The notes under the pieces are model-generated. The model was given only the letters and a program-made list of their open reading frames with translations. It was not told the origin of the DNA and made no database searches. The translations under genes were made by a program, and so were the position numbers. Shown in pieces: positions 24,807-50,574 of a stretch of 64,000 nucleotides of DNA (position 1 is its first letter; the number at the start of each line of letters is the position of its first letter). This stretch comes from Ashinkailepas kermadecensis (taxonomy: Eukaryota > Arthropoda > Thecostraca > Neolepadidae): contig JAOTOM010004681.1 of NCBI GenBank assembly GCA_034440615.1, positions 102,001 through 166,000 on the forward strand. The letters run 5' to 3'.

Positions 24807-24819
24807 AATACAGGGTTTT

Positions 24820-24879
24820 TATGGGCGCTGTATAACCAATGCAGTTGATGTGCCCTAAAACCCAAATAACTAACTAACT
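24820..24879 (+). mobile_element. 60-bp LINE-tail insertion with 13-bp TSD
   Basis: Contains only the LINE 3' hairpin tail (tatgggcgctg, gatgtgccctaaaaccc, aaataactaactaact). It is flanked by AATACAGGGTTTT at 24807-24819 and 24880-24892. This is an extremely 5'-truncated retrotransposition event. Confidence 0.9.
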
Positions 24880-24904
24880 AATACAGGGTTTTAACAAAAA
24901 TGAT

Positions 24905-25505
24905 GATTAGACAACTAATTTTCTCTGCAAATGATTACGTTTGAGTTGGCAAACAAATACCTGATCATAATCTTCACTGCAATATAGCACATGTATAATT
25001 ATCCATACCTGGTGTGTCAGACATGTTTAAAAAAATAAACATTTCATGCACTCAATTTAATACTCCGACATCAAAACCCTAATGTTTCTGCTTTAATTGG
25101 ACATTCATTTCCAAGAATGAATACTTGCAACCTGATGTGTCTGCAGCCAAGGCTGGAAGTTCCTTGTGATGCTGTATTATTTTATTTTGCATATATTATA
25201 TTAATTATTTTATGCATATATTATTTGTGTTACAGACTTGATAAAGAAGAATTCAACACTTCATGCAATCAATTTAATAATCTGCCATCTAACTTACAGA
25301 ACTTAACTTCACCTCATGTTTCTGCCTTAATTTGACATTTATTTCCGAGAACCACATGCGTCCTCGGCCAAGACCGGAAGGTCCTTGCGATGCTGTATTT
25401 TTTTTTTTAATTTGCTGATGGCCGAAAAATTGTTTTGGATGATTCTGGTTGTCCTGTTAGGTTAGATTATAATATGACATAAAATATTTTATATCATGCT
25501 ACGTT
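24905..25505 (+). repeat. AT-rich interspersed repeat, two direct copies
   Basis: Copy 1 spans about 24905-25195 and copy 2 about 25235-25505. Shared motifs are aatgattacgtttgagttggcaaac-type, the ttcatgca-tcaatttaat segment, and cttgtgatgctgtat. Related copies lie in inverse orientation at 25795 and 26320. Confidence 0.8.
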
Positions 25506-25629
25506 CTCTGCCATTCTTACACTGCATATACTGGAGAATCACCACATCCTTGGAAGTTTAGTAGACATTATTACTAAACTTGCCTATGCAGATATATACA
25601 ATGTGACCGGAAATGAGGACATGCAAGTT

Positions 25630-25680
25630 ATGGGTGCTGTATAACCAATGCAGTTGATGTGCCATAAAACCCGAATAACC
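25630..25680 (+). mobile_element. Short LINE-tail insertion
   Basis: atgggtgctgtataacc, gatgtgccataaaaccc and gaataacc repeat the LINE 3' tail. The flanks gaccggaaatga and gacaggaagtga are similar but imperfect, so the TSD is uncertain. Confidence 0.65.
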
Positions 25681-25794
25681 GACAGGAAGTGAAAGCAGAA
25701 CACGGCCTGCTTATGGTGAAGACTTCAAAAATTACATGTGAATAGATACATAATATGAAAATAACCTAACCTAGACTAAGATAACAGTGTAATA

Positions 25795-26715
25795 TATAAA
25801 GTATATTATATGGTAATATATAACCAAACCTAACTGGGAAACTAGAATTGTCCAAAGCAAATTGTTGGGCCATGACAAGCATATGAAAAATAAAATAATA
25901 CATCATTGCAAGGAACTTCCTGCATTGGCTGCGGATTGCAAGTATTCATTCTCGGAAATCAATGTTGAATTAAGGCAGAAACATAAGGTCTTCGATGTCA
26001 GTATTAAATTGAGTGTATGAAGTGTTCAACTTCTTTATCACGTCTGACACACCAGGTACAGATAATAATACACAATGTGCTATATGTGCAGCATGAAGAT
26101 AATGATCATGTATTTGTTTGCCAACTGAAAAGTAATCATTTGCGGATAAAATGAGTGTTCGCATCTTATTTTTACATTAAAATTCCATGCATTTTTTTTT
26201 TCAAATTGAAGGAAAAAACACATTTTACCTAGATCGTAATATATACCTTATTTTGCATATATAATTACATATGAATATATAAATAATTTTTTTTTACAGA
26301 ATGACCTAACCTAGACTAAGAACCTAGCATAATATATAAAATATATTATGATTCATAGTATAATTGGACCTAACCAGAATACCAGAATCATCCAAAACAA
26401 TTTTTTTGTCCATGACATCGCAGGAAAAATAAAATAATACACCATAGCAAAGAACTTCCTGCCTTGGCTGTGGACGAGTCAGGTTGCAAGTATTCATTCT
26501 CGAAAAAAAATGTTTAAGTAAGGCAGGAACGAGGTTTTCAATGTCAACGAGAATTAAATTTAGTGCATGAAGTGTTAAATTTCTTTATCATGTCTGTGAC
26601 ACCAGGTATGGCTAATTATATGAGATGTGCTATATTTGCAGAGTGAAGATTATGATTGTGCATTTGTTTGCCAACTGAAAAGTAATCATTTGTGGAGAAA
26701 ATGAGTGGACACAGT
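25795..26715 (-). repeat. AT-rich interspersed repeat, two inverse copies
   Basis: Copies at about 25795-26165 and 26320-26715 are reverse complements of the 24905-25505 copies. Shared motifs are ggaacttcctgc, aagtattcattctcg, ttctttatca, gacaccaggta and gtttgccaactgaaaagtaa. Unit length is near 400 bp. The four copies form a large imperfect palindrome. Confidence 0.8.
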
Positions 26716-28036
26716 CATTTTTACATTAAAATGCCAGTACTAAAAAAATCAAATTTTACCTAGATCGACATATATGCCCCTTACCTAGGGGAAGGGGTTA
26801 AATTCGTCTTTAACCTTTAATGTGTTTTTCTTCTTTTTTGGGAATTTTTATTCACAGTATCATGTTCATGAAGGTGAATAAGATGATGGGACCACTTATT
26901 TTCTGTGCAAACACAGAAAATGAGGATTTTCAAACCAAAAAATACTACACTAACCTAACATACTTGTTTGCTTTATGGAGGATGATGTATATAACACTTC
27001 TTGTTCCTACCTTAAAGCATGATGATGCTGACAACTGAAGTTTCCACAAAAAATTGCTTACACTTGAATTTCTTTTCTTCAACAGCAGCTTTAGTGAGAT
27101 TAGGTTTGGCTACACTGGATAGGTTGATTTTTTATTTTGGTATTTTTCAGAAATAAGTTGCTTGACATTAAAAAGTACTTATATCTTCAAAGGCAGGTTA
27201 GATTGTTTTTTTTATTCCTTTTTGATTTTTTTTCATTTATCTTTTGTTTCATCATATTTATGCTCTTTTAAATTTATTTTCATGCTGTTGCCCAACTCGA
27301 GGCAACCCAACTTTGGCATTATTTTGCTCACAATCTGAAAAGTAAGCATTTGCAACAAATAAGTGGTCTCATCTTACTTCTTAGTCACTTTCATAAGCAT
27401 GGTATTCTGAAGAAAAATACAAAAACACCTTTTAAGACATTCAGGGGCTTTCCAAACACTAGGGACCTGCAACAAGTAGCTTTACTGCTGTTCTGTATGT
27501 TGAACCAGTAATTGTATGGTGTTTACCAAATGCAAAAATGAACAAACTATCCATATTCAAACGGTTCCTTTCCTTAAAATCCTGTAACCACTCAGAAAGA
27601 GCAACTTTAGATCAATTATTTCATAGTGGTGTGCTGTATTCTGAATATGAAAATGTGGTTGTGCAGGATTAATTATCTGTAGCTGCTGTTGTACAGGTTA
27701 TTAGTAGCCTCTAAAAAATACCTGTGTAATTGCCAAAAATTGTGGGACACTTCCTCATGGTTTTCTTAAGCTTGTACACCTGATAAAGGAGTGTTTAATT
27801 TCCCTTTAATTATGTCTGAGAAATGCCAGAATCAAGCTCTAATAAACAAGCAAAGACCGAATCATGTTCATAAATGTGATCTATCACATATGATGTTGAT
27901 GGCTGGTGTGTAGCCAATGCAGTTTTGCCTCTAAACCCAAGTGGCAGATGAAATACTTTGTTAGTCAACTAACAATCCAGGAAGTTTAAGTTCTTGGCCA
28001 GTTGTCAAAACCAGTTTGAGTTGTGATGGTTGTGAT
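26716..28036. other. AT-rich, no recognised gene
   Basis: Has further partial matches to the end of the AT-rich repeat (around 26885 and 27340) and a decayed LINE tail (27903-27945). No coding signal. Confidence 0.4.
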
Positions 28037-28155
28037 TAGTTAGTTAGTTATTTTGGTTTTAGGGCGCATCGACTACCGAGGTCATTTTGCGCCCATAACT
28101 ATTGGAGTTAACAAAGTGCAGTATCAACCTTCACATCGTGGGATGAAGCCATCAT
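28037..28155 (-). mobile_element. LINE 3'-end fragment
   Basis: Tail gttagttagttattttgg with the hairpin agggcgcatcgac and tgcgcccataact, followed by 50 bases nearly identical to the fragment at 63641-63745. Same subfamily. TSD not identified. Confidence 0.75.
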
Positions 28156-28531
28156 TGGTTGCAGCATGCAAAGTCACCTGAAACTTTTGTTCTCTGTTCT
28201 GACACATCCAATAAGGCCTAGTTAGACTAGTAGTTCTAACTCTGGCACTGTCCACAGACTGATTGAAGCTCTTGGGTGTTTTGAAGTTGAGTTTGTTTTT
28301 GAGGTTTGAGGGTCGTCCAGGAGTTACTCATCCGCTGAAATGGTAAGTGCTCATATATATTATGTACATGGGTGCAAAATGACCTTTGCAGTCGACATGC
28401 CCCTGAACACCAATTCACCACACCATACCACATATATTATGTTACTGCTCATAGCTCTTCCATGCAGTTCAAAATCCACCATGTTTACTGTATTTTGTGA
28501 TAGTACCATTGAATTGATTGAACCAAGATGT

Positions 28532-28613
28532 TCAAATTACCACTCAAGTGAATCCTCAAATTATCACTCAAGTGAATGCTCAAATTACCACTCAAGTGAA
28601 TGCTCAAATTACC
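28532..28613 (+). repeat. 24-bp tandem repeat
   Basis: tcaaattaccactcaagtga units start at 28532, 28556, 28580 and 28604. In one + frame they give an 8-residue SNYHSSEC-type repeat, but no gene context was seen. Confidence 0.85.
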
Positions 28614-29339
28614 CAGTAATCAGTGTTTTGTCCATGTTACTTGACTGGTTTTGCCAGTCCATTGAATGCATAGTGATATCCAAACTGTCATCATATGCTA
28701 GTTTTCCCATTGGGACTGCAGTTGGTAAAATCAGAACCCACAATGTTGGTCTGTGAATGGTGATGATTTTCTTGAATTGTCATGAATAGAGAAGTCAATT
28801 CATTATGTCTTCAGCTTTTGGATGTGATGGGTTTTGAACAAGAAAGCTTCCATGTTCACTAAGAATGCAAGTAATTTTGCATGGATAGCAAGACATGATG
28901 GGATTATTTTCCATGATGGGATCAGTGGCATTTTATGTCCAGATATATCGAGTCATGAAAAACATCAAATCAATGTTTTTAATTATGTATTAACATATTT
29001 ATAACTTCCAAAAAACATTGCTCGGTGATATACATGACATAAATATGATCAGTTAGCTATAATGTTTTAACTGATAAAAACAGACATGGTGGGTTGTGAC
29101 ATTGCATGGCAGAGCTGATTGTGCATGTAAGCACTCTTTATCATGTTGGTGGACAGTTGCCTGTTGATCATGTTAGCAACATTGAGTTGCATTCCTCTTT
29201 CCTTTACCATTTCTGGGAAGATTTGTGATAATACTGTATAAAGCAGTATTAATCTTTCAGATGGCACCACATGTTCTGTATGTCTATCTGTGTTTATTCA
29301 ATACTTTGTTTCTCTGATGTTATTTTGTTCATGCTCAAG
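28614..29339. other. No recognised gene
   Basis: AT-rich sequence without domain-bearing frames. Confidence 0.4.
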
Positions 29340-29545
29340 AAGAACCTTGGGTTCTTTTAAGATTCATTCGACCGCTAGGTCGTATTGTTTTAAGATGCAT
29401 TCGACCGCTAGGTCGAATTACGTCACCAACCTCTCATGGCGATTGGTCGCTGGTGGACGTGGTAATGCTGCTAGTTGCGAGATTCGAACCCACATTCTTG
29501 TGATCAAGAGTCCTACACTACTTACAGGTCTGCCGCAGCCCCGTT
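29340..29545 (-). mobile_element. Second tRNA-derived SINE type
   Basis: On the minus strand a tRNA-like head with B box ggttcgaatc (29481-29490) is followed by a body (accaatcgccatgagagg) related to the SINE at 20920. A duplicated tail gttttaagatgcattcgacc lies at 29355-29405. The head differs from the 20920 SINE. Confidence 0.65.
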
Positions 29546-30554
29546 GTTGATGCTCAACATGTGTTTCTGTTTATACTCCATGTGTTTTGCTTTGTGAATT
29601 CCTTATGAGTTGGGTAATGTGAACATATTTTACTTATATTTTTTGAACCTGAAGAAGCCCAGCTCGTAATTTTTCACGGCAATCCATGCATGTCTAGTAA
29701 GACGGCCGTTAATAACATTTGGGATATTATGCCACAAGGAAAACGACGTTCAACCACCAGGTTCCGATTGGTCTGGCCAGAATACTATTGGGACCATTTG
29801 AACCAATTCCATTGGGAAGCATTTAGACCATTAGGAACCATTAAAACATCTAGGAAAATCCCAGTAGTTCCAAATGGTTTCCAATGCATTTTTTTCCAAG
29901 TATGGAGGGGGGTGGATTCAATTTGAAAATGTGTTGAAAATAAGGACCTGGACCCACTACCTTCGTGAGAGGTTTCCAGCCCTGTTGGCGACGTTGCTAT
30001 ACCGTCTGATGAATTGCTACGTTATGCTACCACTTGCCAGTTGTCCGACCATTTTTTTATGTAGGGAATGCCTTCCTTTCACACCACGACCAATTACTGA
30101 ACGGAACACCATAAACCAATAAAGAAAGGTGAGGTTTTTTAAAATCAATTGTGTCGTGAAATGCCGATTCAAACCATCCACAGTCGTTGAATTAATTTGA
30201 AAACGGCATGCACGAAATGCGTGCCCCTGACTTCAGCAGGCGCTCTGCCGGAAACCGATATAACGTGCGTACCAGATTTGTCGAAAGGGTAACAGCTGAC
30301 ACGATCGAGCACACAGCCTATTACATTTATCTATATATCACCCTTTGACTGAAGACCTATTAGTGCTTAACTGTTATATGAATTGACTCATCCAACACAA
30401 ATTGATGACCTTTTAACATTTCAAACAACTTTATAGCTCTTTCTCTCTCAATGGCATACCTGCAAGTTGGTTACTATTGTGGTATGATGAGACTAACATA
30501 TGAGTAAACACATTGGGCTGAGTATCTCCTAACATCCATTCTTTCTCTTGCAGG
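29546..30554. other. No recognised gene; imperfect inverted repeat near 29780-29890
   Basis: tattgggaccatttgaacca near 29785 is roughly complementary to the segment near 29870. An acceptor-like tctttctcttgcag ends at 30554, just before the composite gene. Confidence 0.35.
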
Positions 30555-30675
30555 CTGAGCAATCAGATTGCCATCAAAGAGTTCCTCAAAATTGTATACT
30601 CCAATTTACAGGGGTTTGTGTCAATATCTGTCCATTTTGTACATTTTCGAACTGATGCTGCCATTTGGTAGGGGT

Positions 30676-30885
30676 ATGACATCTAAAAAACGAAACAGGA
30701 CAGAGGTTAGATATTCAAGCATCAACAGGGAGCATGCAATTGTGTGCCAATTGTGTGGTCAGAATATTGCCAGGGCGAAAAATTTACCGCGCCATGTTGA
30801 AACCAAACACAAATCAGTATGCATGGCAGCAAAGCAGACAACCAGGCATACATCTGCCTTTTTATTGAAAAGGCTGCTACTGTAA
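30676..30885 (+). pseudogene. Composite element G: N-terminal zinc finger
   Basis: From MTSKKRNRTEVRYSS the frame has one C2H2/BED-like finger: CQLCGQNIARAKNLPRHVETKH, with Cys-x2-Cys, then His-x4-His. Such fingers open many hAT-type transposases and bind transposon ends. The frame breaks near 30840, and the acidic region that follows (31014-31350) is in another frame. It is the first of a series of same-strand fragments up to 35534. Confidence 0.6.
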
Positions 30886-31309
30886 TGTATAAAAAAAATA
30901 TGAGCAAAGGGTGCTAAGCACAAGTGGCCGATTTTTGGAGGCAAGTGTGCCACCGACGAATATCCATACTTCAACTGACAATCCTGCTGTGTCGATGCCA
31001 GTAGCAACCCAAATTGGGTCACATATTGACCATGACTTGGCCCTGGATAGAAGGGGATCTTAGTGTCACTGGAAATCAGGCTGATGATTCAATTGTTGAT
31101 ATCCCTGGAGAAAACGCAGAACTTGCACATGAGCTGCCCATGCCCGTGCATGATTTGGATGTAGATGAACGATTCATGGAACATTCACCGCCTAATATCA
31201 CTCAAATTGGCCAGGACCAACCAGCAGACATGTTCCCATCAGTTCCTTTGCCAAATGTGACAAACACTGTACCAGAAAATGAGCCAGACAGTGGCATGCT
31301 AGGCAATAA

Positions 31310-32010
31310 TTGCTATATGGCACGTGTTTGCCAAAAATGGATAATTTTACATGTGCTTTAAGTAAAATGCAAGAACAAATGGACTTTTTATTAAGAATGC
31401 ACGTCAGATACCTGAGCCAATGCACGCTCCGTATGGGCTTGTGCAAGGGAAGGAACTGCATGCTCGGTTGTCACATCTGGAAAGAAAGGTTGCTGAAAAT
31501 AGCAGGGGCATACTCACCAGGACTGCACGTCTGGATTTGGTGGAACAGTTTCCATGGCTCTTGGTAAAGGAAGCAGTGGAAGGCCCACTTGGCTGCTGTG
31601 CTGTGCGCATGCCTTATGTTGATCGAATGCGTTCCCGGAGAGGTGGCCATAAAGTAAGCATGTGGGTCACAGATGGTGTGCTTTTGAAACATGATGCCAG
31701 AAGGCTATGTTGCAGGCACAGCATGACACAAGAGCACAAAGATAATATAGAAACAACACATCTCCGCAAACAGTCTGATGCAGCATGGACGAACTTCAAT
31801 GACTTGAATAAGTAATTGACCCGTGATGCACTTTTGGTCATACACCAAAACCTGCGACGGGGACAGTCATACAGTGATTTTCAGTCTGATATGACTGACC
31901 TCTTCCCCAGCTTAGAACAAGGGCCTCATTATGCAATGCTACAGCGTAATGTTCACCGAAAAACAGCTGCAACTGCTATTGATGTGTTCTACCAGGTGTT
32001 TGTAGATTAA
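31310..32010 (+). pseudogene. Composite element G: coiled coil and TTF-like/N-terminal transposase region
   Basis: Includes SKMQEQMDFLLRMHVR (coiled-coil-like) and, in the next frame, LDLVEQFPWLLV, then a Cys/His-containing stretch resembling the TTF-type zinc finger segment of ZNF862/ZMYM-like hAT proteins. An in-frame TAA (31813-31815) separates it from LTRDALLVIHQNL and FYQVF. The family relation is inferred from motif order, not from a search. Confidence 0.45.
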
Positions 32011-32039
32011 TTCGCTTCTTTTATCATGTCGCCCAGCCT

Positions 32040-32980
32040 GGTCACTGAGTGACATCGGCATATACATACTAGTGCAGACAAAGGTACTGTAGCGAATATA
32101 ACCAGACAAGTGGTGAATTTACGGTACTTGGATGTAAGTAATACATATATCTGCCAGAGTTGTTGTAACTAATCTGTCTGTTGATGTAATTCGAAATCGA
32201 GCTACATCAGAGGAGCGAGAACAAAACATTTCCCATGCATCCGATGCTGTTGGATGCCTGGAACACATTGTCTGCACTGACCAGTAAAGTGCTCCGTATT
32301 CCCATGGAATATTTGCCAAAAATGTGGTCATTTAGCACTGATAAAGAGGCGGTTTATGCTGGGTCTGGGTCCGGTGTAGCTGCACGCTGGAAGAAACGCT
32401 CCAGAAGCGAAGCATTTCTACATCAGACTGACCGGGCACACAGGGTGGAAAAACACTTCGAGGCTGTGTTTAAGCAAAAACGTTGTCAATGGGCATGCAA
32501 GTTCCTGAACGATGATCTTCCTCAAATCGTCGAGGCGGTTGAAAAGTCTTCCAAAAGCTTGCGCACAGCCAGAGCAATCGACAGTAGCTTTCGCACGTTA
32601 AAACGGGCGGTTAAGACATGTTTTATAGAATACTCTGGCCTCTTTGGAATCGGTCATACATCAGTACAGGAGTGTTGTAATGACTATCGAGAACAAGTCA
32701 AAGAAGGACGATGGTTCCGTATGTGCTGGCCTACTGAGGGACCTAACGGACATGTGCTTCATTCCAAATAGTCTCATTTTGAATCATACTATGCAACTGG
32801 GTGTTGGTAGAAGCAAAGCAAGTCAGAAGGATTGGTACTCGCTTTGGGAAGATGCCAAGGCGGTACATTTAAAGAACAACTAGTAAACCTGACAAATGAC
32901 CCTTATACTAATCCACTGCTGCGTAAGCATAAAGAGGATTATCTTGACGGGAAATTCAATGGTTTTAATTTCCTTGAAAT
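32040..32980 (+). pseudogene. Composite element G: hAT-type transposase core, frame-broken
   Basis: Fragments in several + frames spell TSADKGTVANITRQVVNLRYLD, then STDKEAVYAGSGSGVAARWK and AFLHQTDRAHRVEKH. The latter matches the order of the hAT core around its second catalytic Asp (TDGA...GVAARL...HCxAHRL). Next come GLLRDLTDMCFIPNSL and an alpha-helical part. At least three frame changes (about 32640-32700, 32884, 32980) show decay, or unrecognised introns or read errors. Confidence 0.5.
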
Positions 32981-32983
32981 GCA

Positions 32984-34543
32984 ATGAGTCATATTCGCAC
33001 CACGAGGGGTCATTCAGAGAGCACTTTGGCCGATGTTTGGAAACAAGCTGAGGAAAGACAGCGTATTCTGGCTTCTGCGTTACTGGATGAGGCAAATGTC
33101 TATTTAGAGACAAGTAAAATAGAACAGCTGTTCCTGAATGTTTTCAATATTGATCAGTATCCATTTAAGAGCAGAAAGCTTCTGGAACCATTCAGAAATG
33201 CTGACTTTGAGACCCTGGTCAAGTATTACAACAGACACGGTGATTTATCACTGGACCGATGTGAAAACCCGGATGAAGGAAATCATAGCCATCAGCGGGC
33301 GGTAGACCAGTTCGTGGTGTTTAAGAATAGGATACTGAAAGGTATCGACACCAGGCAAGAATGGTTCACACGAGTGAACGGTGTTGAGACATTAGACACC
33401 TGTGCAGTGCTGTTGGATTTCCTGGTGCCCGCAAGAAATCTACACGTAGGTATCCCGGTTGTTGCTGAGTTGATAGAAATAGCGGTGGTCATGTGTCGCT
33501 CTCAGTCTGATACAGAACGTACAGGCAAAGTCATCAAAGATTTGGCAGAACAAAGATTCGGGGGAAAATTCACTGAGCTGAAACCCGAGGAAAAAGATCG
33601 CTGTGCCAAGGAGGTATTTATTAGGTCATTCGATGTTACAGTGTCGGACTTCCCTATTGACCGCGTGATAGAGCAGTGGTTTACCAGCCACTACGGCCTA
33701 TTAAAGCGAGCTGATAGCGCACGACCAAAATATATAACTGACAAAGCATCTTCAAAAGTATCATTTATTCGTTCCTTGTCCAAACAAAATGTACGATACC
33801 AAGAGTTGGGCCGCGGACGAGGTCCAGGTTTGCTGCGTCCGGTGAGAAAAGATCAGGCCCGGAAACAAGCGGGAAAGCCTGACTCACAACATACAGATAC
33901 CGTGGTACACGGCATGGATGGCGAGTTGGTTATACAACGAACTGCTCGGTCACCGGGGGTGGTAGGAAACGTCCCCAATCCGAAGGCGGCCAAGCATTCT
34001 ACACAGAGGACAATATCGACGTACTTCAGTACAGTCGCACCCCACTCAACTGAGGTGGCAGATGTCCACATGGGTTCAGTGCCTTCGTTAGATGAAGATT
34101 ATTCAGACTGTGACAATGACTTGCACATAATCCCTGAAGGTCTTGCAGTCGACAGTGGCGAACCTAATGCTCCTTGTATGGCAGCACCTGAGAGTCATGG
34201 TGTAACTACAGGGGAAGATCTGCGTGCGTGCTTCCCGTACACTAGTCAACCATGTGGTATAGAAAATATTGGTAACACCTGTTTCATGAGTGTTGTCTTG
34301 CAAGTATTACCACTCTTGTCGATTAAACACAAAGCATCGGCATGCCATTTACAGCCTGCTATTCTGCGGGAACTGAATAGTTGCTACAGTCTCAAAGACG
34401 GTGTATTCAATCCGAGAACGCTTCATCAGCTACTGGCTTCAGAGCATCCATCTCTGTTCGGGAATGCCAGGCAACATGATGCATCAGAGGCTTTGGTGCT
34501 AATTCTGGATACCTTGAGCAGGCTGGGTTGTACTCTGAAAAGG
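32984..34543 (+). pseudogene. Composite element G: hAT dimerisation region, linker with PIP-box-like motif, USP Cys box
   Basis: One open frame links two unrelated domains. Residues 150-195 (VPARNLHVGIPVVAELIEIA, then CRSQSDTERTGKVIKDL) fit the hAT C-terminal dimerisation motif, usually S-x-x-ER-x-FS-x-x-K. After a 210-residue polar linker, residues 423-512 start a ubiquitin-specific protease fold. The Cys box is GIENIGNTCFMSVVLQVL with catalytic Cys433, and ARQHDASEALVLILDTL is the QQDAxEF-type box. Within the linker, residues 341-348 read QRTISTYF, matching the PCNA-binding pattern QxxIxx(Y/F)F. USPs remove ubiquitin. A fusion to a transposase is unusual. The start at 32984 is only the first Met; the true protein continues from upstream fragments. 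Confidence 0.65.
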
Positions 34544-34574
34544 GGGAAAAAAAAATTTTTTTTTTGGGTGGGAG

Positions 34575-34614
<40 letters not shown>

Positions 34615-34715
34615 AAAAAAATTAATTAAAAATAAAATAATTTTTATAAAAATAAAAATTAAAAATTTAGTTAATAATTAAAGAAAAAATGTTTTTAACT
34701 TTTTAATTTAATTTA

Positions 34716-34758
<43 letters not shown>

Positions 34759-34870
34759 ATATATTAAAATAAAAAAATATATTAAAAAAAAATTAAATTA
34801 TTTATTTTAACTTAAAATAAAATTGAAAAATTTAAATATAAAAAATAATCATAAAAAAAAAATGTACATG
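34544..34870. repeat. Almost pure A/T low-complexity tract inside the USP domain
   Basis: From 34544 the sequence becomes runs of A and T, with nearly no G or C between about 34576 and 34862. It falls exactly between the Cys-box half and the Cys-knuckle/His-box half of the USP. It may be a real insertion or expansion, or an assembly or consensus artefact. Confidence 0.9.
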
Positions 34871-34961
34871 ATACTTATAAGCGAGATAGTGTTAGAAAGG
34901 AAACAAGAAGACTTTAAAAACAAGGAATAAGGAGAAGGATATCGATACTTCTTGGAGACGG

Positions 34962-35534
34962 ATGTCGATTGAGTGTTCAGAAAGTGGTATATTCCACCTT
35001 TTTTACCAAAAAATTTTAAAAACAACCAAAAAAAAAAAAAAAATTGGAATGTCGTCTGAAGTTTCGTGTCGAAACTGCCACACTAACAGTACCAGCCATT
35101 ATAGTACATATATACATACAGTGTATTGCGACAGTTTGGAAGGAACCATACAGGATGCAATTGGCTATTCAGAGGATGACCTTCCTGATTGGAGATGTGG
35201 CACATGCACACGAGTTGGAGGAACCAAAACCAATCGTATTACAGCTCCACCAGGTATACTGATTGTGGATCTTCAACGTCTAAATTACAATGCGAATAGG
35301 CGTGATAATATATACCCCATTGACAGTATGCAAATCGGGAGCAGTACATATAATTTGACTGCGGTTATATGTCACGATGGACCCAGCAGAGATGAAGGCC
35401 ATTATTGGTGCTACATAAAAAGGAATGATTCCCATTTCGTGTGCAATGACACTTTGGTGCATAAAACCACCCGGATATCAATGAAACGAAAGGATGCTTA
35501 CATTCTAACGTATCAGAAGAGCACTGACCACTAG
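34962..35534 (+). pseudogene. Composite element G: second half of the USP domain
   Basis: 190-residue frame. It carries the USP zinc ribbon (VSCRNC and WRCGTC), the strand GILIVDLQRLNYN, the palm segment YNLTAVICHDGPSRDEGHYW with the catalytic His in GHYW, and FVCNDTLV with the third catalytic acid. Together with the Cys box at 34250-34300 a full C19 catalytic set is present, split by the A/T tract. The first 25 residues are probably not coding (A-rich flank). TAG at 35532-35534 ends the frame. Confidence 0.75.
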
Positions 35535-35639
35535 ATTGCACATACCATTCTAACGCAAGACAATCGTTACCGACTATTGGCCGCTCGATCAATCTTTCAA
35601 AGGGATTGCTAAGAGTCGGCTGGTTGGTTTGTCAATGAC

Positions 35640-36215
35640 ATTCCACGCAACAATTCCTACGATGAATTGTCTGGGAGGTCGTGCTGTCTATGGCAGTCCA
35701 CGCAAAGATCCCTACGAGGAATTGCCTGGGAGGTGAGCCATTCGTGCTGTCTGTGGCAGTCCACGCAAATATTCCTGCGAGGAATTGTCTGGCAAGCGAG
35801 TAGTCTTGCTGTAGATGGCAGTCCACGCAAAGATCCCTACGAGGAATTGCCTGGGAGGTGAGCCATTCGTGCTGTCTGTGGCAGTCCACGCAAATATTCC
35901 TGCGAGGAATTGTCTGGCAAGCGAGTAGTCGTGCTGTAGATGGCAGTCCACGCAAAGATCCCTACGAGGAATTGCCTGGGAGGTGAGCCATTCGTGCTGT
36001 CGGTGGCAGTCTACCAAATATTCCTGCGAGGAATTGTCTGGCTAGCGAGTGGTGATGTAGATGGCAGTCCACGTAAACATCCTACGAGGAATTGCCTGGC
36101 AGGTCATCCAGTCATGCTGTAGATGGCAGTCCACGCAAAGATCCCTACGAGGAATTGCCTGGGAGGTGCGCCATACGTGCTGTCTGACAGACTGTCCACA
36201 ATTCCTGTCGGGGAT
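35640..36215. repeat. About 125-bp tandem repeat made of two 62-bp halves
   Basis: ggcagtccacgcaaagatcc and ggcagtccacgcaaatattc halves alternate, each followed by tacgaggaatt or tgcgaggaatt. gtagatggca recurs at 35811 and 35936. About four and a half units. It starts 100 bases after the USP stop and could be subterminal repeats of the composite element or an unrelated minisatellite. Confidence 0.85.
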
Positions 36216-36557
36216 TGCGGCCACCGAAATGAGCTCTTAGCTTCCTGTGTGCGTCCTATTGTCTAGACCTGAGGGCGCCTTTAGCTTCAGCGTATTAACA
36301 GTCACCTGCCAAGCATATTGTACCATTTTCGGGATGTGGCCACTGATGCAAAACCATTGTTCTCAAATTAGTTTTGAGATTAGCGTTCGATGTCAGAAGA
36401 GCAACACCCTGGATGTGGGGGGGGGGAAATGTAAAATCTAGGTACTTAGATGTATAGTTTGTGGCATGCATTGTTTAACTTCCCAACAAAAGTGCTAGAG
36501 ATGCTCCACTGAAGAAAACGAAACTTCAGCTGGAGTTGTTTTACGCGTCTTTATTTC
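36216..36557. other. No recognised gene
   Basis: Short unique stretch between the tandem repeat and the SINE. Confidence 0.4.
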
Positions 36558-36569
36558 AGTTCCACGTTT

Positions 36570-36660
36570 GGTTGGTTATTGGTTTTACGACACGTCGACC
36601 GTTGAGTCATATAGCGTCGCCAATCTCTCACGCCGATTGGTCGCGGGCGAAGAGTAGCGA
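36570..36660 (-). mobile_element. 5'-truncated SINE with 12-bp TSD
   Basis: Same tail and body as the SINE at 20920 but truncated before the B box. Flanked by AGTTCCACGTTT at 36558-36569 and 36661-36672. Confidence 0.93.
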
Positions 36661-36770
36661 AGTTCCACGTTTAATTTGCTTCAAGCAAACAATTTCATTT
36701 GTCAATAAAAAAAAACAGAAGGAAACATTTTGGCGGTGCAATATCTACAGCTAAGAAAACAAATGGATGG

Positions 36771-37018
36771 AACCCAGTAATAGCAGGGTCACATCACCTA
36801 GTTACCAAATAATTGTTGTTTCCACAGAGAAGCCAGCAAACTCAGCGGTGGCGCGGCCGCGGCAGCCGCGGAGCACGTGGTAGCCGCGGCGGAGAACCCA
36901 GTAATAGCAGGGTCACATCACCTAGTTACCAAATAATTGTTGTTTCCACAGAGAAGCCAGCAAACTCAGCGGTGGCGCGGCCGCGGCAGCCGCGGAGCAC
37001 GTGGTAGCCGCGGCGGAG
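36771..37018 (+). repeat. Tandem duplication of 124 bp spanning a splice acceptor
   Basis: 36771-36894 and 36895-37018 appear identical. Each contains ttgttgtttccacag, a good acceptor, followed by the GC-rich start of the SGNH gene's exon. The duplication therefore doubles the exon start. Confidence 0.9.
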
Positions 37019-37979
37019 GAAACGCAGGCAGGCGTGGTAGGGAGTGGCTGGGCCGAGGAAGAATTGCTAGAGGGTGGGAAGGCGGCAGGGGCGGCCAGGG
37101 TCGTCGCGGTGCCGCGGGCGAACGCCGTGGCGGACCCGGGGAAGGGGGGCGACGCGCTGTTGATGGTGGCGGCGGTGCGCTCGGCCGGCTCACTCCGGTG
37201 GGCATGGCCGTGCCGTACTTCGCACGGCATCAACATCGCGTCGCCCTCCTGGGCGACAGCCACGCGGAGTGGCTGCACCGCGGCCCACACCCGGGTCGCG
37301 TCGTGATCGGGCGTTTGGCGAACACCATCGCTTCGACCTTGACCTGTGCGCCCGCGGCGGCCTTGGGGCCGACTTGGCTGCTGATCCGGACTTGGCGGCC
37401 TGGCTGCGGGAGCAGTGTCTCTGCCTCGTGTCAGGCAACTTGTTTCCCGCCACAGCTGTCCTAAGCTTTGGCGGGAACTGCCTGACACTGGGCAGGGGGG
37501 ACCCGCGCCTGCGGCCGGACGCCTCCGCTGTCCGAGACCTTTGTGTCTCGAGCATGCGTGAGGCTGCTCAGCAGCTTAGGATGCTCCGGGGCCTGCAGGT
37601 GATCCTCCTGGGGCCCATCCCACGCATGCACCTCACCGACGTGGTGCTGCAGGAGTTCCGGGTCCTCGGGGCCCAATACCGGACCCTGAGCAGTGAGCTC
37701 GGGGTCCTGTATTTGGACGTAGAGGAGCTCCTGCAGCACCAGTTGGGGCGTGTCGACGACCGACAGGTGGAAGCACCTGCTCCGAACCTGCCAATGGAGG
37801 TAGGCGCCGTGGATCCGGCTGAAGCTGCGCCTCTCGTGCAGCCCCAGCCAGGATTGGCGGCGCCGCGCCTGCCTGAGACAGTGTTCGCCGCGGATGGCAT
37901 CCACCTGTCGGACGCGGCCCTGGCGGCGGTGTGGTATGGGCTTCAGGAGTGGGTCCTGATGCACCGCGACGGCTCGTAG
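36951..37979 (+). pseudogene. RGG-rich protein with C-terminal SGNH hydrolase domain, one frame break
   Basis: After the acceptor, the first frame has an Arg/Gly-rich region (RWRGRGSRGARGSRGGG and further GRG/RGG repeats) and then the SGNH block I, RVALLGDSHAEW. Near 37300-37340 the coding sense moves to another frame. That frame continues RFDLDLCARGG, AVLSFGGNCL (the GxN block), VILLGPIPRM and finally FAADGIHLS with the catalytic Asp-His, ending TAG at 37977-37979. All SGNH blocks are therefore present but split. RGG boxes usually bind RNA. Hydrolases of this kind occur in host proteins and in some retroelements (CR1 ORF1, some tyrosine-recombinase elements). Which it is here is open. A single base error would explain the break. 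Confidence 0.6.
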
Positions 37980-38004
37980 GTGTGTAGTGGCGGTTGGTCT
38001 GTGT

Positions 38005-38411
38005 TTTATTTTATTTATTTATTGTGGTTTTGGGGCGCATCGACTGCACAGGTCATATAGCGCCCATAACTCAGTCATTTATACATATAAGCGCGTGAAG
38101 GCCATTTCGGACGAGTTATAAGACCATGTCGAATCTGTTCATGATAAAACTGGTACTAACCATCAGTTGGATCAGTATGCTAATGGCCGGTGTAAATCAC
38201 TGAAAATCTCATTTCCAAGAGGAATTTGAAAAGTTGTCCAGAGTGAACAGCGTCAGATTCGTCTCCTAATACTTTCCGAAGCGAGACAGGGGAACGTCCA
38301 AAGTGACGTCTCCGTTCGTGGGCAAGCCGGGGACATGAAACTAAAATGTGTCGCACAGACAATGGTGCCGTGCATTTCGGACACAGCGGCGTCTCGCCAC
38401 CACCCAGAAGA
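38005..38411 (-). mobile_element. LINE 3' fragment E1, 10-bp TSD
   Basis: Encodes only the ORF2 C-terminus (CPKCTAPLSVRHILVSCP, ending VIYTGH at 38180) plus the 3' UTR and tail. Flanked by TGGTCTGTGT at 37995-38004 and 38412-38421. Confidence 0.88.
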
Positions 38412-38597
38412 TGGTCTGTGTAAATATGGTCTGTTAGTTAGTTAGTTATTTGGGCTTTAGGGCGCGTCGACTGCTGTAGTCATTTTGCGCCCATAACTAA
38501 GATATTCATATAAATACAATTAGAGAGTGTCAAGCCTCACACTTTGAGGGCCGCTTAAGTGATGCCACTGTGTTATAGGTTTTACATGCAATGCATA

Positions 38598-39997
38598 TCA
38601 GTGTGGAGTATATATTACCGAGAACGATACATCAGAAAGGAAGTCGATCAGTTGTCCTGGTTGAACATTGCTAGAGTTGTCAGACAGAATATCATTAAGT
38701 GAGTCCACCTGTGCAGATCCAAAGTGATGTCTACGCTCTTCAGCATAAAATGGGCACGAGATCAAAACATGGCTAACTGTCAGTAGTGCACAACATCTTG
38801 TGCACCGAGGTTTCTCGCCACCGCACAACAGATAACCGTGAGTGGCATAAGTATGCCCAATGCGGAGGCGGCACAATACAACCTCTTCTTGTCTATGTTT
38901 AAGGCAGGACGAGCTCCATGGTCTCAGACGTTGCGTAATGGCTCTCAGTTTGTTCGTCTGTGTCGCGTCCCACATTGCCTGCCACTTGTCTAAGAGGAAG
39001 GTGGACACCTCTCGGTAATGGTCCGTGGCAGGAAGTGGCAGCGTAGGAGTGCACGGCGCGCGCGCTGCTCGCTTCGCCGCAGCATCCGCCAACTCATTAC
39101 CGCAAATACCCACATGGCTAGGTGGTGGTGGTGGATTTGTGCTTTAGGGCGCATCGACTGCGTTGGTCATTTTGCGCCCATAACTCTACCTGTCATAACA
39201 TTGTTGTTAGGCGATGGGTCTTACGTCATATCAGAGTGCTTGTGGTGGGCGGTATACTATGTCAAAATTTACTTGTTTTAGGTATGCAAATATATCCCCA
39301 GATGCTACGATCTGAGAATCATCGGCCAGCATTTGTCGCAGCGTCATATCAATACTTTGAAGCCCAAGATAATCCAACACAAGAGCACCCGGCGTTTCTT
39401 GTTGTGAATATTCGTCAGACCGCTTAAAATATCACGCAAAAGGGGGTTAGACGGATAAAATGTGTTCAGGGCCAGAAGGCTGCTTAAAGAATCGGTGAAA
39501 ATAACATGTCGATCTCCCTCCGACACTTCGATGTAGCATAAAGCTTTCAAAATAGCGACAAGTTCCGATGAGTACACAGATGCGTGAGTTGGGAGGGAAA
39601 ACGATCGAATAACAGGGCCACAAACAAAAGCGCTGCCCACACCGTCCTCGGTTCGAGATCCATCGGTATAGGTTGTTCTCCAGCCCTGAAATGATTCAAT
39701 ATGTTCCAGAGCCAGTGCGCGAAACTCTTCTGGGGAAACATCTGTTTTCCTCGTTTTCGCAAGGTATGTATCCACTTCTGGTGCGATAAGCTCCCATGGG
39801 GGAGTCTGCATGCCCTCATCTCTCCGAATTCCTCGGAGGCTGAGCTGACTTTCCTGGAAAAGCTTACGCATCCGCACACCAAAAGGAGCAACACTCAAAT
39901 CTCGCTCCGTTGAAAAAAGGTTTGGTAGTCGTCGCGAAAAAACATGCGAATATGCCGGGTGGTCAGGGAACTGGCGAAGTTTACAAGCATAGCGCAT
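38598..39997 (-). pseudogene. E2 ORF2 remnant: RNase H and zinc-knuckle tail
   Basis: RNase H motifs are YTDGSRTEDGVG, SELVAILKAL, FTDSLSSLLAL and, after the interruption, GNELADAAAK. The C-terminal CRLRIGHT / CTRCCALLTVSHVLISCP follows. Apart from the insertion the frame is open, which suggests a fairly young copy. Confidence 0.85.
39121..39378 (-). mobile_element. LINE 3' fragment inserted within E2
   Basis: A (GGT)n-type tail and the hairpin gggcgcatcgac / tgcgcccataac, followed by about 190 bases of 3' UTR. It splits the E2 RNase H between W-I and P-S-H. No exact TSD was found at this junction. Confidence 0.7.
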
Positions 39998-40015
39998 TCC
40001 GAGTCTGTAAATATG

Positions 40016-40055
40016 TTTAGCTCAGATAGCTCAGATGGCTCAGATGGCTCAGATA
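40016..40055 (+). repeat. Short tandem repeat (gctcagat)
   Basis: Four copies of a 9/10-bp gctcagat-g unit between E2 and a SINE. Confidence 0.85.
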
Positions 40056-40072
40056 GGACTTTGTACGCGTTT

Positions 40073-40196
40073 GATTGGTTGGTTATTGGTTTTACGACAC
40101 GTCGACCGTTGAGTCATGTAGCGTCGCCAATCTCTCACGCCGATTTGTCGCGGGCGAAGAGTAGCGACAAGTGAGACGCGAACCCACAACCTTTCG
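40073..40196 (-). mobile_element. SINE copy, 5'-truncated
   Basis: Tail, body and the B-box region (gacgcgaacccacaacc) of the 20920-type SINE, lacking the A box. gattgg occurs at both ends and may be the TSD. Confidence 0.8.
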
Positions 40197-40377
40197 GATT
40201 GGAGAATGTGAATGCAGTTGTTATTCTGTGGGCCTTGGGATACGTTCGAGATATGTGCTCCAGTGATAATCATGCGTGTACCCGCAACATCATCGTAACT
40301 TCGAAGATTGTCTGTCGGATAATGGTGCACTTCAAGCTCAGATAGGGCAGGGTGGGTCGGACTATGTAGGGGAGACT

Positions 40378-40792
40378 GGGGTCAAATGTAACACGGGGCA
40401 ATTGTAACAGTAGCCATGGTTCCGAAACCCGCTGATGGATGGCGCTGGCGGCAGTACTGAATATGCACAGTCAGCTGTTTCCTTTCCTCACGGGGTTTCA
40501 CGCCGTTGCGACAAGTGAGTCGAGTGCTGTTCACAATTATGTGGTTTTGAGGGTGTGTTGTAAATTTGATGATTTTGTTTAATTATTAGCTCATTCACGT
40601 ATCTCACTAGATATGGATCTAAGAGTTTGATTGAGCGGAGTGGGGCTAATTAGCCAAAAATGTAGCGCCGTAGCTGCCGCCCACGCTGCCGTGTTTTGCA
40701 TCAGTTTCGTCTCTAAGATGGCGCGGCTTGGCGGGGTCAATTGTAACATTTTTGCTGGGGTCAATTGTAACAGTGTTACAATTGACCCCTAT
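40378..40792. promoter_or_regulatory. Left subterminal iterated motif of the Tigger-like element
   Basis: ggggtcaaatgtaaca and gggcaattgtaacag at 40378-40412, then two direct copies of ggggtcaattgtaaca at about 40734-40772 and one inverted copy ending near 40788. Matching motifs occur at the right end (43170-43220). Likely transposase-binding sites overlapping the promoter; inferred from repetition and position. Confidence 0.7.
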
Positions 40793-40868
40793 GGCCATAC
40801 TATTAAGTATGCATTTACTACAGAATGTCGTTGGGCGCTGGTCAATGAATGTTTCCGATTTTCAGACG

Positions 40869-42821
40869 ATGCCTCGCTCTCGAGAACGAACTTCTGACCG
40901 CGGGACCCGCCTGGAGACAGCCCAGGAAGCTGTTGCCGCGGTTATGGAAGGCGGGTTGACGGTGAGAAAAGCCTCAGCCCAGTATGGAATGTGTCATGTG
41001 ACGTTGTCTCGTTACGTGAAACAGAAGAAAGAAGGAATGGATATCACAGTCGGCTACAACCCGCACAACAAGGTCTTTTCACCAGGCGATGAGAAGATAC
41101 TCACTGACTATCTACTCAAATCATCGGAGGCGTTTTTTGGTCTGACGCCGATGGAGGTCAGGGTTCTCGCCTACCAGTGCGCGATGTCCCGAGATATGAA
41201 AGTTCCCAGTTCCTGGACGGATCAGAGACGAGCAGGAGTCGACTGGTTCAACTCCTTTCTGAAGCGGAACCCGCAGCTCGCCATTAGGTCACCGCAGGCC
41301 ACCAGTTTGGCACGTGCAACCAGCTTCAATCGTGAGAACGTGAAGAACTTCTTCGATAAGCTGGGGATCGTCCTCGCAAGACACGAACTTGATCCGTCAA
41401 AGATATGGAACCTTGATGAAACTGGCTGTACGACAGTGCAGAAGCCGACGGCAGTGGTGGCTGGGAAAGGCGTGAAACAGGTGGGAGGACTCACCTCGGG
41501 AGAGCGGGGACATCTCGTTACCATGTGTGCTGCTACTAGCGCAATGGGCAACACTGTGCCACCGATGTTCGTGTTTCCAAGAGTCCGATACCACGAATGG
41601 TTTGTTCGTGGTGGACCGGTGGGTTGTATTGGCACTGCAAACAAGTCTGGTTGGATGACTTCGGAGCACTTCGTGACCTTCATGAAGCACTTCATCCTAC
41701 ATGTGAAGTCGACGCCCGAGTCACCGGTGTTGCTGCTGCTCGACAACCACGTGTCCCATCTCAGTGTGGAAGTCCTAGACCTGGCCAAGGACAGCGGAGT
41801 AATTATGCTCTCCTTTCCTCCTCACTGCTCCCACCGCCTCCAGCCCCTGGACAGAAGCGTGTACGGCCCGTTTAAGAGAAGCATATCTACTCACATGGAT
41901 GCGTGGATGAGAAGCAATCCAGGAAAAACTGCCAGCATCTACGACATCCCACAGATCGCTGCGGAGGCCTGGGTATCGGCGTTTACCCCAAAGAACATCC
42001 AGAGTGGCTTCCGGACAACAGGCATCAGTCCGTACAATCCAGACATATTCACCAACGAAGACTTTGCACCAAGCAACGTTACAGACCGACCCAGAACGGA
42101 ACTGACTGCACTCTCCGCCAGCCATACATCCGAAGGCGAGACCACAGATGACATAGCACATCCTGCAGATTCTGAGCCATCGGGTATCGGACAGGCTGAT
42201 CCACCGGTGATCGGACATCCTGGTCCATCGGGAATCGAACACCCTGGTCCATCGGCGATGGAACAGCCTGGTGCATCGGAGATCGAACAGCCTGGTCCAT
42301 CGGGAATCCAACAGCCTGGTCCATCGGAGAGCCAACAGCCTGGTCCATCAGCGATCGAACAGCCTGGTCTATCAGGGATCGCTTCGACACCGCTCACCCC
42401 TGAAGACATTCGGCCTCTGCCCAAGGCAGGCCCAAGGAAAAGCATCAGTACGGGACGGAGGAAGCGAAAGGCTGCAATTCTGACAGATACGCCAGAGAAG
42501 AGAGCGATCGAGCTAGAACAGAGTCGAAAGAAACGCAAACAAGCACCGAAAAAGCTCAACCTCAGCATGGACAAGCACGAAGAGAAGAAGACGAAGAAGG
42601 CCGGTGGCAAGAGGGCTCGGAAGTCCACCCGCAGGGCAAGCAGTAGTGATGACGCTGAAGAAGTTTTCTGCCTTGTGTGCGTCGAGAGTTTTAATACCAG
42701 TCGATCTAAAGAAAGGTGGATCCGGTGCGAGATGTGCGCGATGTGGGCCCACGAGGCGTGTACCGCTGTCGAAAAGTATGAGGCGTACATATGTGAAAAC
42801 TGTGAATCGGACACCGAGTAG
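40869..42821 (+). CDS. pogo/Tigger-type transposase with C-terminal PHD finger (650 aa)
   Basis: The start is taken at MPRSRERTSD because the upstream in-frame codons read through the ggggtcaattgtaaca repeats. Residues 13-54 form a psq-type helix-turn-helix (TVRKASAQYGMCHVTLSRY). Residues about 70-140 fit a CENP-B-like DNA-binding half (TDQRRAGVDWFNSFLKRNP). The DDE domain follows, with catalytic NLDETG (Asp183), LLLDNHVSH (Asp292) and LQPLDRSVYGPFK (Asp328), so DDD. Residues 446-503 are a run of QPGPS repeats. A Lys/Arg-rich stretch (523-590) is a probable nuclear signal. Residues 601-645 form a C4HC3 PHD finger (C601, C604, C620, C623, H628, C631, C642, C645). PHD fingers read histone tails, so chromatin-guided targeting is plausible but not shown. 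No frame damage is visible. Confidence 0.93.
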   Translation: MPRSRERTSDRGTRLETAQEAVAAVMEGGLTVRKASAQYGMCHVTLSRYVKQKKEGMDITVGYNPHNKVFSPGDEKILTDYLLKSSEAFFGLTPMEVRVLAYQCAMSRDMKVPSSWTDQRRAGVDWFNSFLKRNPQLAIRSPQATSLARATSFNRENVKNFFDKLGIVLARHELDPSKIWNLDETGCTTVQKPTAVVAGKGVKQVGGLTSGERGHLVTMCAATSAMGNTVPPMFVFPRVRYHEWFVRGGPVGCIGTANKSGWMTSEHFVTFMKHFILHVKSTPESPVLLLLDNHVSHLSVEVLDLAKDSGVIMLSFPPHCSHRLQPLDRSVYGPFKRSISTHMDAWMRSNPGKTASIYDIPQIAAEAWVSAFTPKNIQSGFRTTGISPYNPDIFTNEDFAPSNVTDRPRTELTALSASHTSEGETTDDIAHPADSEPSGIGQADPPVIGHPGPSGIEHPGPSAMEQPGASEIEQPGPSGIQQPGPSESQQPGPSAIEQPGLSGIASTPLTPEDIRPLPKAGPRKSISTGRRKRKAAILTDTPEKRAIELEQSRKKRKQAPKKLNLSMDKHEEKKTKKAGGKRARKSTRRASSSDDAEEVFCLVCVESFNTSRSKERWIRCEMCAMWAHEACTAVEKYEAYICENCESDTE

Positions 42822-43167
42822 GCGACCACAGACCGGGCGTCACAGATATTGGAAATGTTTCGAGTTGTGATGTTTGATGTTTTGCCCTACTTCAGTACAA
42901 ATAGTCAAGAAGTGTTTTAGGTCTCAGAGCCCTGCTAGTTAGTTTGTTTAGCCTGAGAAGCTGTGCTTTTGAATCCAGAAAGACCTACGGGTGCAAGAGC
43001 TTTGATCCGTTACGTAATCGCATTTTTATGATGTGGTGTTGGTTTTTGTCCTGAGAAAGGTGGAGCTGTGATTTGTATTCCAGGAAGAGCTCAGAGAGTA
43101 AGATACAATTGTTTTTCAATACAAGTTGTTTTCGATAAAAGTGGCTTTCACCGCAGCATTCGTTAAC

Positions 43168-43222
43168 ATGGTACAATTGACCCCGGGTGCTGTTACAATT
43201 GCCCCGTACATGGGGTCAATTG
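43168..43222. promoter_or_regulatory. Right subterminal iterated motif of the Tigger-like element
   Basis: gtacaattgaccccgg, gttacaattgccccgtac and ggggtcaattgtaacacc lie within 55 bases, in both orientations. Same motif as at the left end. Confidence 0.7.
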
Positions 43223-43415
43223 TAACACCTGAAGTGACTTTTTTAAACCAAAAGTTCGACACCTTAGGGTATGTATTTATAAATATTTTCACATACGCAG
43301 CAAGGGCAAAACATCAAGGTTTGTGAAAATCCAACAAAGTGTTCTCCAGCGCAAAACGTTTTCGCTCCTGACTCGAAAATGTAAAAACTGTTACATTTGA
43401 CCCCGGTCTCCCCTA

Positions 43416-44178
43416 CACGTTGGATCGGAGAATGTGAATGTAGTTGTTTTGTCGGCCTTGGGATAAGTTGACCAAGGCAATATGTTCATGTTCATATGTT
43501 CACATGTTCATATTGCACTCAGTAAATATATCAAACGTAATTATGTTGTACGTTAGGTGCATGCCACTGTCGCGAACTTAAATTCTGGGCCAATCGGCAC
43601 TTTGTCATTGTCGCGCGCTCTGCATTGTATACCAGCGTTGAGGGTGTTTGAGCTGCTGTTTGGTGTGGCCCGATGATGCTGGTCCGTCTCTGAACGAACC
43701 GAGAGTGTAGTTTTGGTGTGACTGATTTGTCATGCGTTATGAGCTGTTCTGTTGCAACCGCATGCATGCATTGCGCACGCCATGCGCATCCTGCGAAGCA
43801 AGCTTGCCTACCGCACCCCGTCTCCGTGCATGCTGCTGTGGCGGAACCGGTGCTGGTCATGAGTGGCGGAATTGCACAACGTCGGACATACGGGGCAATT
43901 CCCGATCTGAATTCCGAAGATACTAAGCGGGTGCATATGCTCTGCTTGCGCCCTTTGGCCTGGTCAACCAAATGGCCCTGGTCGCGCCGGTCAGCAGGCC
44001 GGCTGGGTGATTATGCCTAAAAAGACACTATACGGCTACTTTTCTCCGGACAGTAAACCCAGTAATGCCTGGTATTGCCGACCCTGCCTACGGACTGAGG
44101 TGAGCCATTCATTGTTTAACTGCCTCTGCTCTGCTTAGATCGTAAGAGAGGAAATATGGTACGCAAATAGTTGCATGC
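43416..44178. other. No recognised gene; diverged copy of left flank
   Basis: 43424-43470 (ggagaatgtgaatgtagttg, ggccttgggata) resembles 40197-40250 left of the Tigger element. A gttcatgttcatatgttca simple repeat lies near 43475. Open frames at 43718-44020 have no recognisable domain. Confidence 0.4.
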
Positions 44179-50568: not shown

Positions 50569-50574
50569 AATAAA
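50569..50574 (+). terminator. Polyadenylation signal AATAAA
   Basis: tgtgcaataaagtgtga with GT-rich sequence downstream. A plausible 3' end for the transcript suggested by the exon-like units at 49.5-50.2 kb. Confidence 0.4.

Follow-up and report, generated by a model that had tools for sequence, protein, structure and literature searches.

The DNA analyzed here is a 64,000-nt stretch (the window; all coordinates are positions in the whole stretch) of contig JAOTOM010004681.1 from Ashinkailepas kermadecensis. It contains a hAT DNA transposon, in a copy that is no longer intact, whose transposase is joined to a ubiquitin-specific protease (USP) domain. The junction lies in an open frame of 545 codons, stop to stop (32978-34612): the hAT signature SQSDTERTG and the codon of the USP catalytic Cys share this frame with no intervening stop (Table 1). 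Pfam searches matched UCH in this frame (E = 5.3e-10) and in a downstream frame at 34896-35531 (E = 5.3e-18), and zf-BED in an upstream frame at 30559-30882 (E = 1.4e-4). The broken N-terminal part of the transposase contains a coiled part, a zf-C17orf113-like region, an RNase H-like core, and an insertion domain. The best other copy in the genome, on contig C1540, is 99% identical and has an open frame of 1,390 codons that starts after the BED finger and takes in the whole USP.

An earlier, sequence-only reading of the window had proposed that a hAT C-terminal motif and a USP Cys box were joined without a stop in a frame placed at 32984-34543, that a zinc finger and a hAT core lay upstream on the same strand, and that the copy was degraded. 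All three proposals hold: nothing interrupts the frame between the two motifs, the finger was matched by Pfam and the fold of the C1540 equivalent of the core matches Hermes, and the transposase N-part occupies several frames while the USP is split by an insertion. The same reading placed the remaining USP blocks at 34962-35534. The second USP half does lie at 35043-35534; the sequence ahead of it, 34540-35042, is an insertion absent from C1540. The limits given to the system, 30676-35534, were too narrow: terminal inverted repeats (TIRs) and the target-site duplication CCTTGGAC place the element at 22113-51023.

The hAT and USP assignments were examined separately. No Pfam hAT domain, including Dimer_Tnp_hAT, was found at E ≤ 1 in either the window frame or the open C1540 copy, and because Pfam gave no such match, the hAT assignment required fold comparison. 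The predicted fold of the C1540 transposase part matches that of Hermes, with an RNase H core and an all-helical insertion. In an alignment of 18 rows, the D, D, and E residues were kept in 11/11, 13/13, and 12/12 covering rows, respectively. We infer that these are the counterparts of the Hermes catalytic residues, the Glu of SQSDTERTG being the probable third acid. In the USP boxes, the Cys was present in 5/5 rows reaching the box, and the His and Asp in 6/6. The sixth row, L020, was left out of the Cys count as it starts behind the Cys box, its aligned Cys being an artefact. The three boxes were also kept in two database proteins, P0001 and P0002 (described below), and the USP catalytic and zinc residues were retained at 31-32% identity. 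The C-terminal domain was modeled with a USP fold, such that both folds expected by the earlier reading, hAT and C19, were recovered in the predictions. A sequence search of solved structures returned USP matches and a single chance match (31 rows at E ≤ 10), and the best USP fold rows included USP46/USP12 and Ubp8. Based on these comparisons, the C-terminal domain is a predicted deubiquitinase in cis with the transposase.

Searching the assembly (907.7 Mb, 4,689 contigs) with the window frame yielded 68 matches. Apart from C1540, the USP-bearing copies comprised diverged lineages at about 70% identity (C1852a/C1256/C2726), 49% in the hAT part (C1852b), and mostly about 38% in the hAT part (C3016/C3703/C3705/C494/C1370), as well as a degraded copy, C4197, at about 61-67%. 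Most of the remaining matches were of the hAT part alone. In four such examples, L023, L024, L025, and L027, the open frames are 658-1,321 codons long, and the USP search gave no match on their contigs. A further USP-less hAT gene, L028, is flanked by inverted 3.3-kb arms that are 99.8% identical (L028 1176-4458 and 6717-10000), a possible assembly fold-back. The C3096 copy (L018/L019) is broken at the window equivalent of 33400-33407, where its two parts overlap by 8 bp and are held apart by about 6.7 kb containing a 687-codon open reading frame (ORF); the pattern resembles the insertion of a further element that makes 8-bp duplications. Part of the window's A/T-rich insertion, 34861-35015, recurs at this break.

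The sequence-only reading named two outcomes that would count against a fusion: a junction absent from all relatives, and hAT and USP parts that prove to be separate host genes. The junction recurs in C1540, in the diverged copies, and in database homologs. With respect to the second, a USP query scored 25 matches, spread over 15 contigs, and 20 of them lay near a transposase match; no clearly separate host USP gene was found at E ≤ 1e-3, with 5/25 matches (C3270, C2333, two on C3096, and one on C2726) in unread surroundings and lacking a nearby-transposase assignment.

Querying the protein database with the full C1540 frame identified P0001 (LOC122365592 isoform X3 of the barnacle A. amphitrite; 1,494 aa) and P0002 (1,618 aa), both with UCH, and P0003 (1,007 aa), which ends in the hAT part without a USP. 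The earlier reading had looked to arthropod genomes for relatives, and P0001, the single homolog with a species name, agrees with this. A profile search matched P0001, P0003, and P0004 (449 aa). In an unrooted tree of 12 rows, a 100/100 branch parts the seven USP-labelled rows, two of which are partial and from one lineage, from four rows without a USP. The USP-bearing rows of this genome and those of other origin thus fall on one side of that branch, and the USP domain has been kept through long divergence. Rows from other sources were interspersed among the own-genome lineages, several of these forks being weakly supported. A single gain of the USP fits this unrooted tree.

The ratio of non-synonymous to synonymous substitution rates (dN/dS) was calculated for C1540 and C1852a. 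Using NG86, values were 0.15 for the hAT N-part, 0.22 for the hAT C-part, 0.30 for the USP (dS 0.47), and 0.77 for the linker. Using YN00, the corresponding values were 0.19, 0.44, 0.33, and 1.14. For this pair, the sole well-measurable one, dN/dS was thus below 0.45 in the hAT and USP domains. The deeper USP pair C1540-C3016 had a dN/dS of 0.34 at a dS of 2.55, and the window-C1540 pair, at 0.75 and a dS of 0.006, is too close for inference.

The linker between the transposase and the USP carries a motif resembling the PCNA-interacting protein (PIP) box. The motif was scored as Qxx[I/L/M]xx followed by two aromatics, with Tyr allowed at the first aromatic place; the F[F/Y] of PMC5371812 is narrower. 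Four own-genome lineages have Qxx[I/L]xx[F/Y]F in the linker: QRTISTYF, QRTIASYF, QAKITNYF, and QLKLDKYF (shuffled-linker p of 0.0011, 0.0007, 0.002, and 0.009, respectively). In each protein scanned past the linker (C1540, C1852b, and C3016), the motif occurs once. P0002 has QRQITHFF (p = 0.0006), aligned to the same columns. The motif was missing from the four USP-less sequences, representing two lineages, and from an ordinary hAT transposase at 61307-62938; overall, it was present in 5/7 USP lineages and 0/2 USP-less lineages. In the best-conserved sister pair, with 54% linker identity, the 20-residue windows that surround the motif reached 15/20; a window just ahead of it scored 16/20, so the motif is not the best-kept stretch of the linker. 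We consider the motif a putative PIP box, predicted to bind PCNA. The suggestion of the earlier reading that the deubiquitinase might act on PCNA gains support from this candidate motif. A CRL4-Cdt2 PIP degron was considered and rejected: compared with the degron consensus, the motifs have no TD pair and mostly no basic residue. There is precedent for PCNA motifs in mobile elements in PMC5371812, which describes the pogo transposase as a PCNA partner, a putative PIP box in maize Ac/Ds, which transposes during replication, and a PIP motif of LINE-1 ORF2p that is required for activity. According to the same source, how relevant these motifs are in pogo and Ac/Ds is unclear.

The ends of the element were located from repeats and from homology limits. 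The duplication CCTTGGAC flanks the element at 22105-22112 and 51024-51031. The left end reads CAGCGTTGGAAAAATGG and the right end, in reverse complement, CAGGGTTGGATTTTCAC; both carry short TIRs, CAG(C/G)GTTGGA, and CAG-type TIRs are usual for hAT elements. An initial scan for TIRs and duplications listed four candidate elements in the window, whereas eleven other loci or joins gave none (the C1540 join was then missing its left end). Only 22113-51023 was retained, because the homology limits of C1540 and C1256 coincide with it. Specifically, C1540 homology stops at both ends (window 51023 = L010:6700; window 22113 = L029:1206, where the alignment overruns the element's end by only 4 bp), and the diverged C1256 copy begins at the same base as the window element. 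The C1540 element is 18,495 bp long. The C4045 copy has the same left end and terminates at the same base as the window element. For the C1256 copy no right end was located, and no TIR pair was detected for the C3016-type, C1852a, and C1852b loci within the sequence scanned.

The left 400 bp gave at least 40 full matches at 94-100% identity, the window copy included (best 40 of 896 candidates). One of these copies, on C2914, is 5,307 bp long and joins window 22113-26478 to 50593-51023, with a 505-bp stretch doubled and CCCATGAT at both ends; it is an internal deletion from which the whole coding part is gone. For 11 further left ends, a right end was located in eight cases, six of which had perfect 8-bp duplications, one a single mismatch, and one a non-matching pair. 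For the other three, two right ends lay outside the fetched stretch and one contig ended. At least one derivative thus lacks the coding part and likely moved in trans. The short TIRs, 8-bp duplications, and further open-frame copies that the earlier reading had proposed to look for are therefore present in the family. Segmental duplication or a very large element, either of which the shared flanks of the copies might have indicated, was settled by the ends and duplications.

Table 1. Features of the hAT-USP element in the window
Feature	Position	Strand	Basis
Whole hAT element	22113..51023	+	TSD/TIR scan, sequence, C1540 homology limits, C1256 start
BED-type zinc finger	30727..30813	+	Pfam zf-BED E 1.4e-4
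hAT transposase N-part, several broken frames	31366..32880	+	BLASTN to C1540 locus; predicted fold of C1540 equivalent matches Hermes
Open frame: hAT C-terminal part, linker, first USP half	32978..34543	+	99% identical to C1540
SQSDTERTG, hAT signature	33500..33526	+	Sequence position; Glu in 12/12 covering rows of 18
Putative PIP-box motif QRTISTYF, linker	34004..34027	+	Consensus from PMC5371812
USP catalytic Cys codon	34280..34282	+	Cys in 5 alignment rows reaching box
A/T-rich insertion splitting USP, long A runs	34540..35042		Not in C1540 copy
Second USP half: zinc ribbon, His (35400-35402), Asp (35448-35450), stop	35043..35534	+	Pfam UCH 5.3e-18; alignment
62/125-bp tandem array, inside element, 3' of transposase gene	35678..36184		Also in C1540 copy
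Frame-shifted ORF: RGG-rich N-part and SGNH/GDSL hydrolase-like domain	37103..37976	+	Pfam Lipase_GDSL_2 1.8e-4
Nested insertion (inferred)	38005..40002		Absent from C1540
Nested insertion (inferred)	40369..43413		Absent from C1540
Stretch with LINE-like ORFs	44191..49123		Absent from C1540

The element may contain a second gene, an SGNH-like ORF on the transposase strand, 3' of the USP. Its Pfam support is weak (1.8e-4 to 0.0073, under the curated cut-off). An open 391-codon counterpart occurs at the same place in C1256 (C1256:69094-70266, L017/L033), with a dN/dS of 0.475 in the C-part (189 codons), and a weaker match in C1852b (36% over 95 columns). The ORF accompanies the transposase gene in two subfamilies.

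Other repeats were noted in and around the element. A 92-bp stretch at 36569-36660, which may be a separate small repeat, is 91-98% identical to sequence downstream of several hAT-type genes, those of L010, L015, L020, L023, L024, L026, and L027. A 63-bp motif occurs in both orientations at 24816-24882, 28035-28098, 38434-38496, and 44189-44251, some of these at or near the edges of inserted stretches. The USP-less L025 (at 5272) and L028 (at 6083) have right TIRs CAGGGTTGGA followed by GGGATAAC; their left ends were not found. Elsewhere in the window, 5435-9807 is a 20-bp minisatellite of about 219 copies. The hAT transposase at 61307-62938 (+ strand) lies in two frames, matches DUF4371 (3e-16) and Dimer_Tnp_hAT (2.2e-7), and is unlike the hAT-USP family.

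The family shares with the hAT superfamily (Hermes, Ac/Ds, and Tol2 type) the Hermes fold, the D/D/E residues, the BED finger, the CAG-type TIRs, and the 8-bp duplications. It differs in its C-terminal USP, its linker PIP box, its second, SGNH-like ORF, and the absence of a Pfam hAT match, as well as in size: 18.5 kb compared with the 4.4-4.7 kb given for Tol1/Tol2 in PMC10175614. Several known systems combine some of these parts. XP_001314237.1 of Trichomonas vaginalis (PMC2836005) also has a transposase and a USP-class (C19) protease in one protein; its transposase is of the Transposase_11 type (pfam01609) and its host a protist, and the description there mentions no ends, copies, or PIP box. 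Ginger1, as described in PMC2836005, is likewise a cut-and-paste transposase with a C-terminal ubiquitin/SUMO protease, but its transposase is Gypsy-integrase-like and its protease OTU or Ulp1. Helitrons with VTD and OTU domains (PMC9741609) carry deubiquitinases, three zebrafish VTDs having reacted with ubiquitin probes, but use a rolling-circle RepHel and another class of deubiquitinase. Mutator elements with Ulp1 are also in print (PMC2836005; PMC9741609). Finally, the passages of PMC5371812 on pogo and maize Ac/Ds, whose transposases have a known and a putative PCNA motif, respectively, mention no deubiquitinase. Among the papers listed in searches of the open-licence literature, none reports a hAT-USP fusion, which, with Repbase outside their scope, is weak evidence of absence. 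Other transposons with ubiquitin proteases are thus already known, and the new feature here is the PIP box.

The firm part of our interpretation is anatomical: as read from the sequence, a transposase, a PCNA motif, and a USP stand in one chain. Transposase and USP have been kept over deep divergence, and the PIP motif is found in most lineages. In our judgment the likeliest use of the predicted deubiquitinase of this hAT family, at about even odds, is on PCNA or its neighbors at freshly replicated DNA from which the element is excised. In such a mechanism, the PIP box would hold the transposase on PCNA behind the fork, and excision there would leave a gap whose repair would take place on PCNA-loaded DNA. 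By trimming ubiquitin from PCNA or from the adjacent transposase, the USP would favor the element in repair and re-insertion. Shorter copies would be mobilized in trans by intact ones. A narrower version, in which the PIP box parks the transposase on PCNA behind the fork and the USP removes ubiquitin from PCNA, giving the element control over gap repair and the timing of re-insertion, is tentative.

Several observations weigh against use of the USP at PCNA, or against the element as we describe it. The Pfam dimerization model is blind to the hAT part, whose assignment is carried by the predicted fold and the ends, a Pfam match not being a defining feature. In the own-genome copies read, the BED finger is in another frame than the rest or a break lies further on. 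C1540 has an open frame and TIRs, but neither it nor C4045 has paired duplications on one contig. The left 8-mer of C1540, GGTAGGAG, equals the right 8-mer of C4045, as would be expected had arms been exchanged in the assembly or through recombination. With respect to the motif, the barnacle protein P0001 has a near-miss, QSSILTFI; the degraded C4197 copy has QGTIALCF at the motif place, as read from the alignment; and L015 and L026 have QLKSDKYF. L023, L024, and L027 are near-identical and were counted as one lineage, so that the four hAT-only examples represent two lineages. The YN00 ratios are above those of NG86, and dS was saturated in 5/6 deeper pairs. Finally, the Z scores of the USP fold rows differ too little for naming a substrate.

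The USP may instead protect the transposase itself, stripping ubiquitin off it or its partners to counter the proteasome, with the PIP box serving for S-phase targeting alone. The deubiquitinase is in cis with the transposase, and prevention of the degradation of transposition proteins was proposed for the Helitron VTD deubiquitinases (PMC9741609). Self-protection alone leaves the pairing of PIP box and USP, in 5/7 USP lineages versus 0/2 USP-less ones, unexplained, and we regard it as possible but rather unlikely. For transposons with Ulp1 and OTU, an action on DNA repair has been proposed (PMC2836005).

A role in chromatin, with the USP taking ubiquitin off histone H2A or H2B at the donor or the target site, appears distinctly improbable. 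In its favor, USP46/USP12 and Ubp8, which are among the best fold rows, act on histones; those rows are the ones that lie too close together to identify a substrate.

It is very unlikely that the USP is a captured piece of a host gene, functionless and carried by chance. The window copy and several others are broken, as such a passenger might be. Nevertheless, the catalytic and zinc residues are retained at low identity, the USP dN/dS is 0.30 versus 0.77 in the linker, and the USP rows from this genome and other sources lie together behind the 100/100 branch.

A domesticated family of host genes, spread through segmental duplication rather than transposition, is the least credible explanation: the coding copies do have long flanks in common, and in NCBI the A. 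amphitrite protein is recorded as isoform X3 of a single locus (that gene itself could be domesticated), but the common flanks stop at the TIRs, with an 8-bp duplication in the window, and copies with an identical left end carry different duplications.

Ubiquitin proteases recur in unrelated transposons. In this family, which has many near-identical copies, the protease shares a chain with the transposase and lies next to a putative PCNA motif, and this makes one question about their use directly testable: does a transposase steer the ubiquitin signals of the replication fork to control the repair of its own excision? If so, this would be the first case of a transposase that carries its own PCNA-directed deubiquitinase, and it would link hAT transposition, which is replication-coupled in maize Ac/Ds according to PMC5371812, to PCNA ubiquitination.

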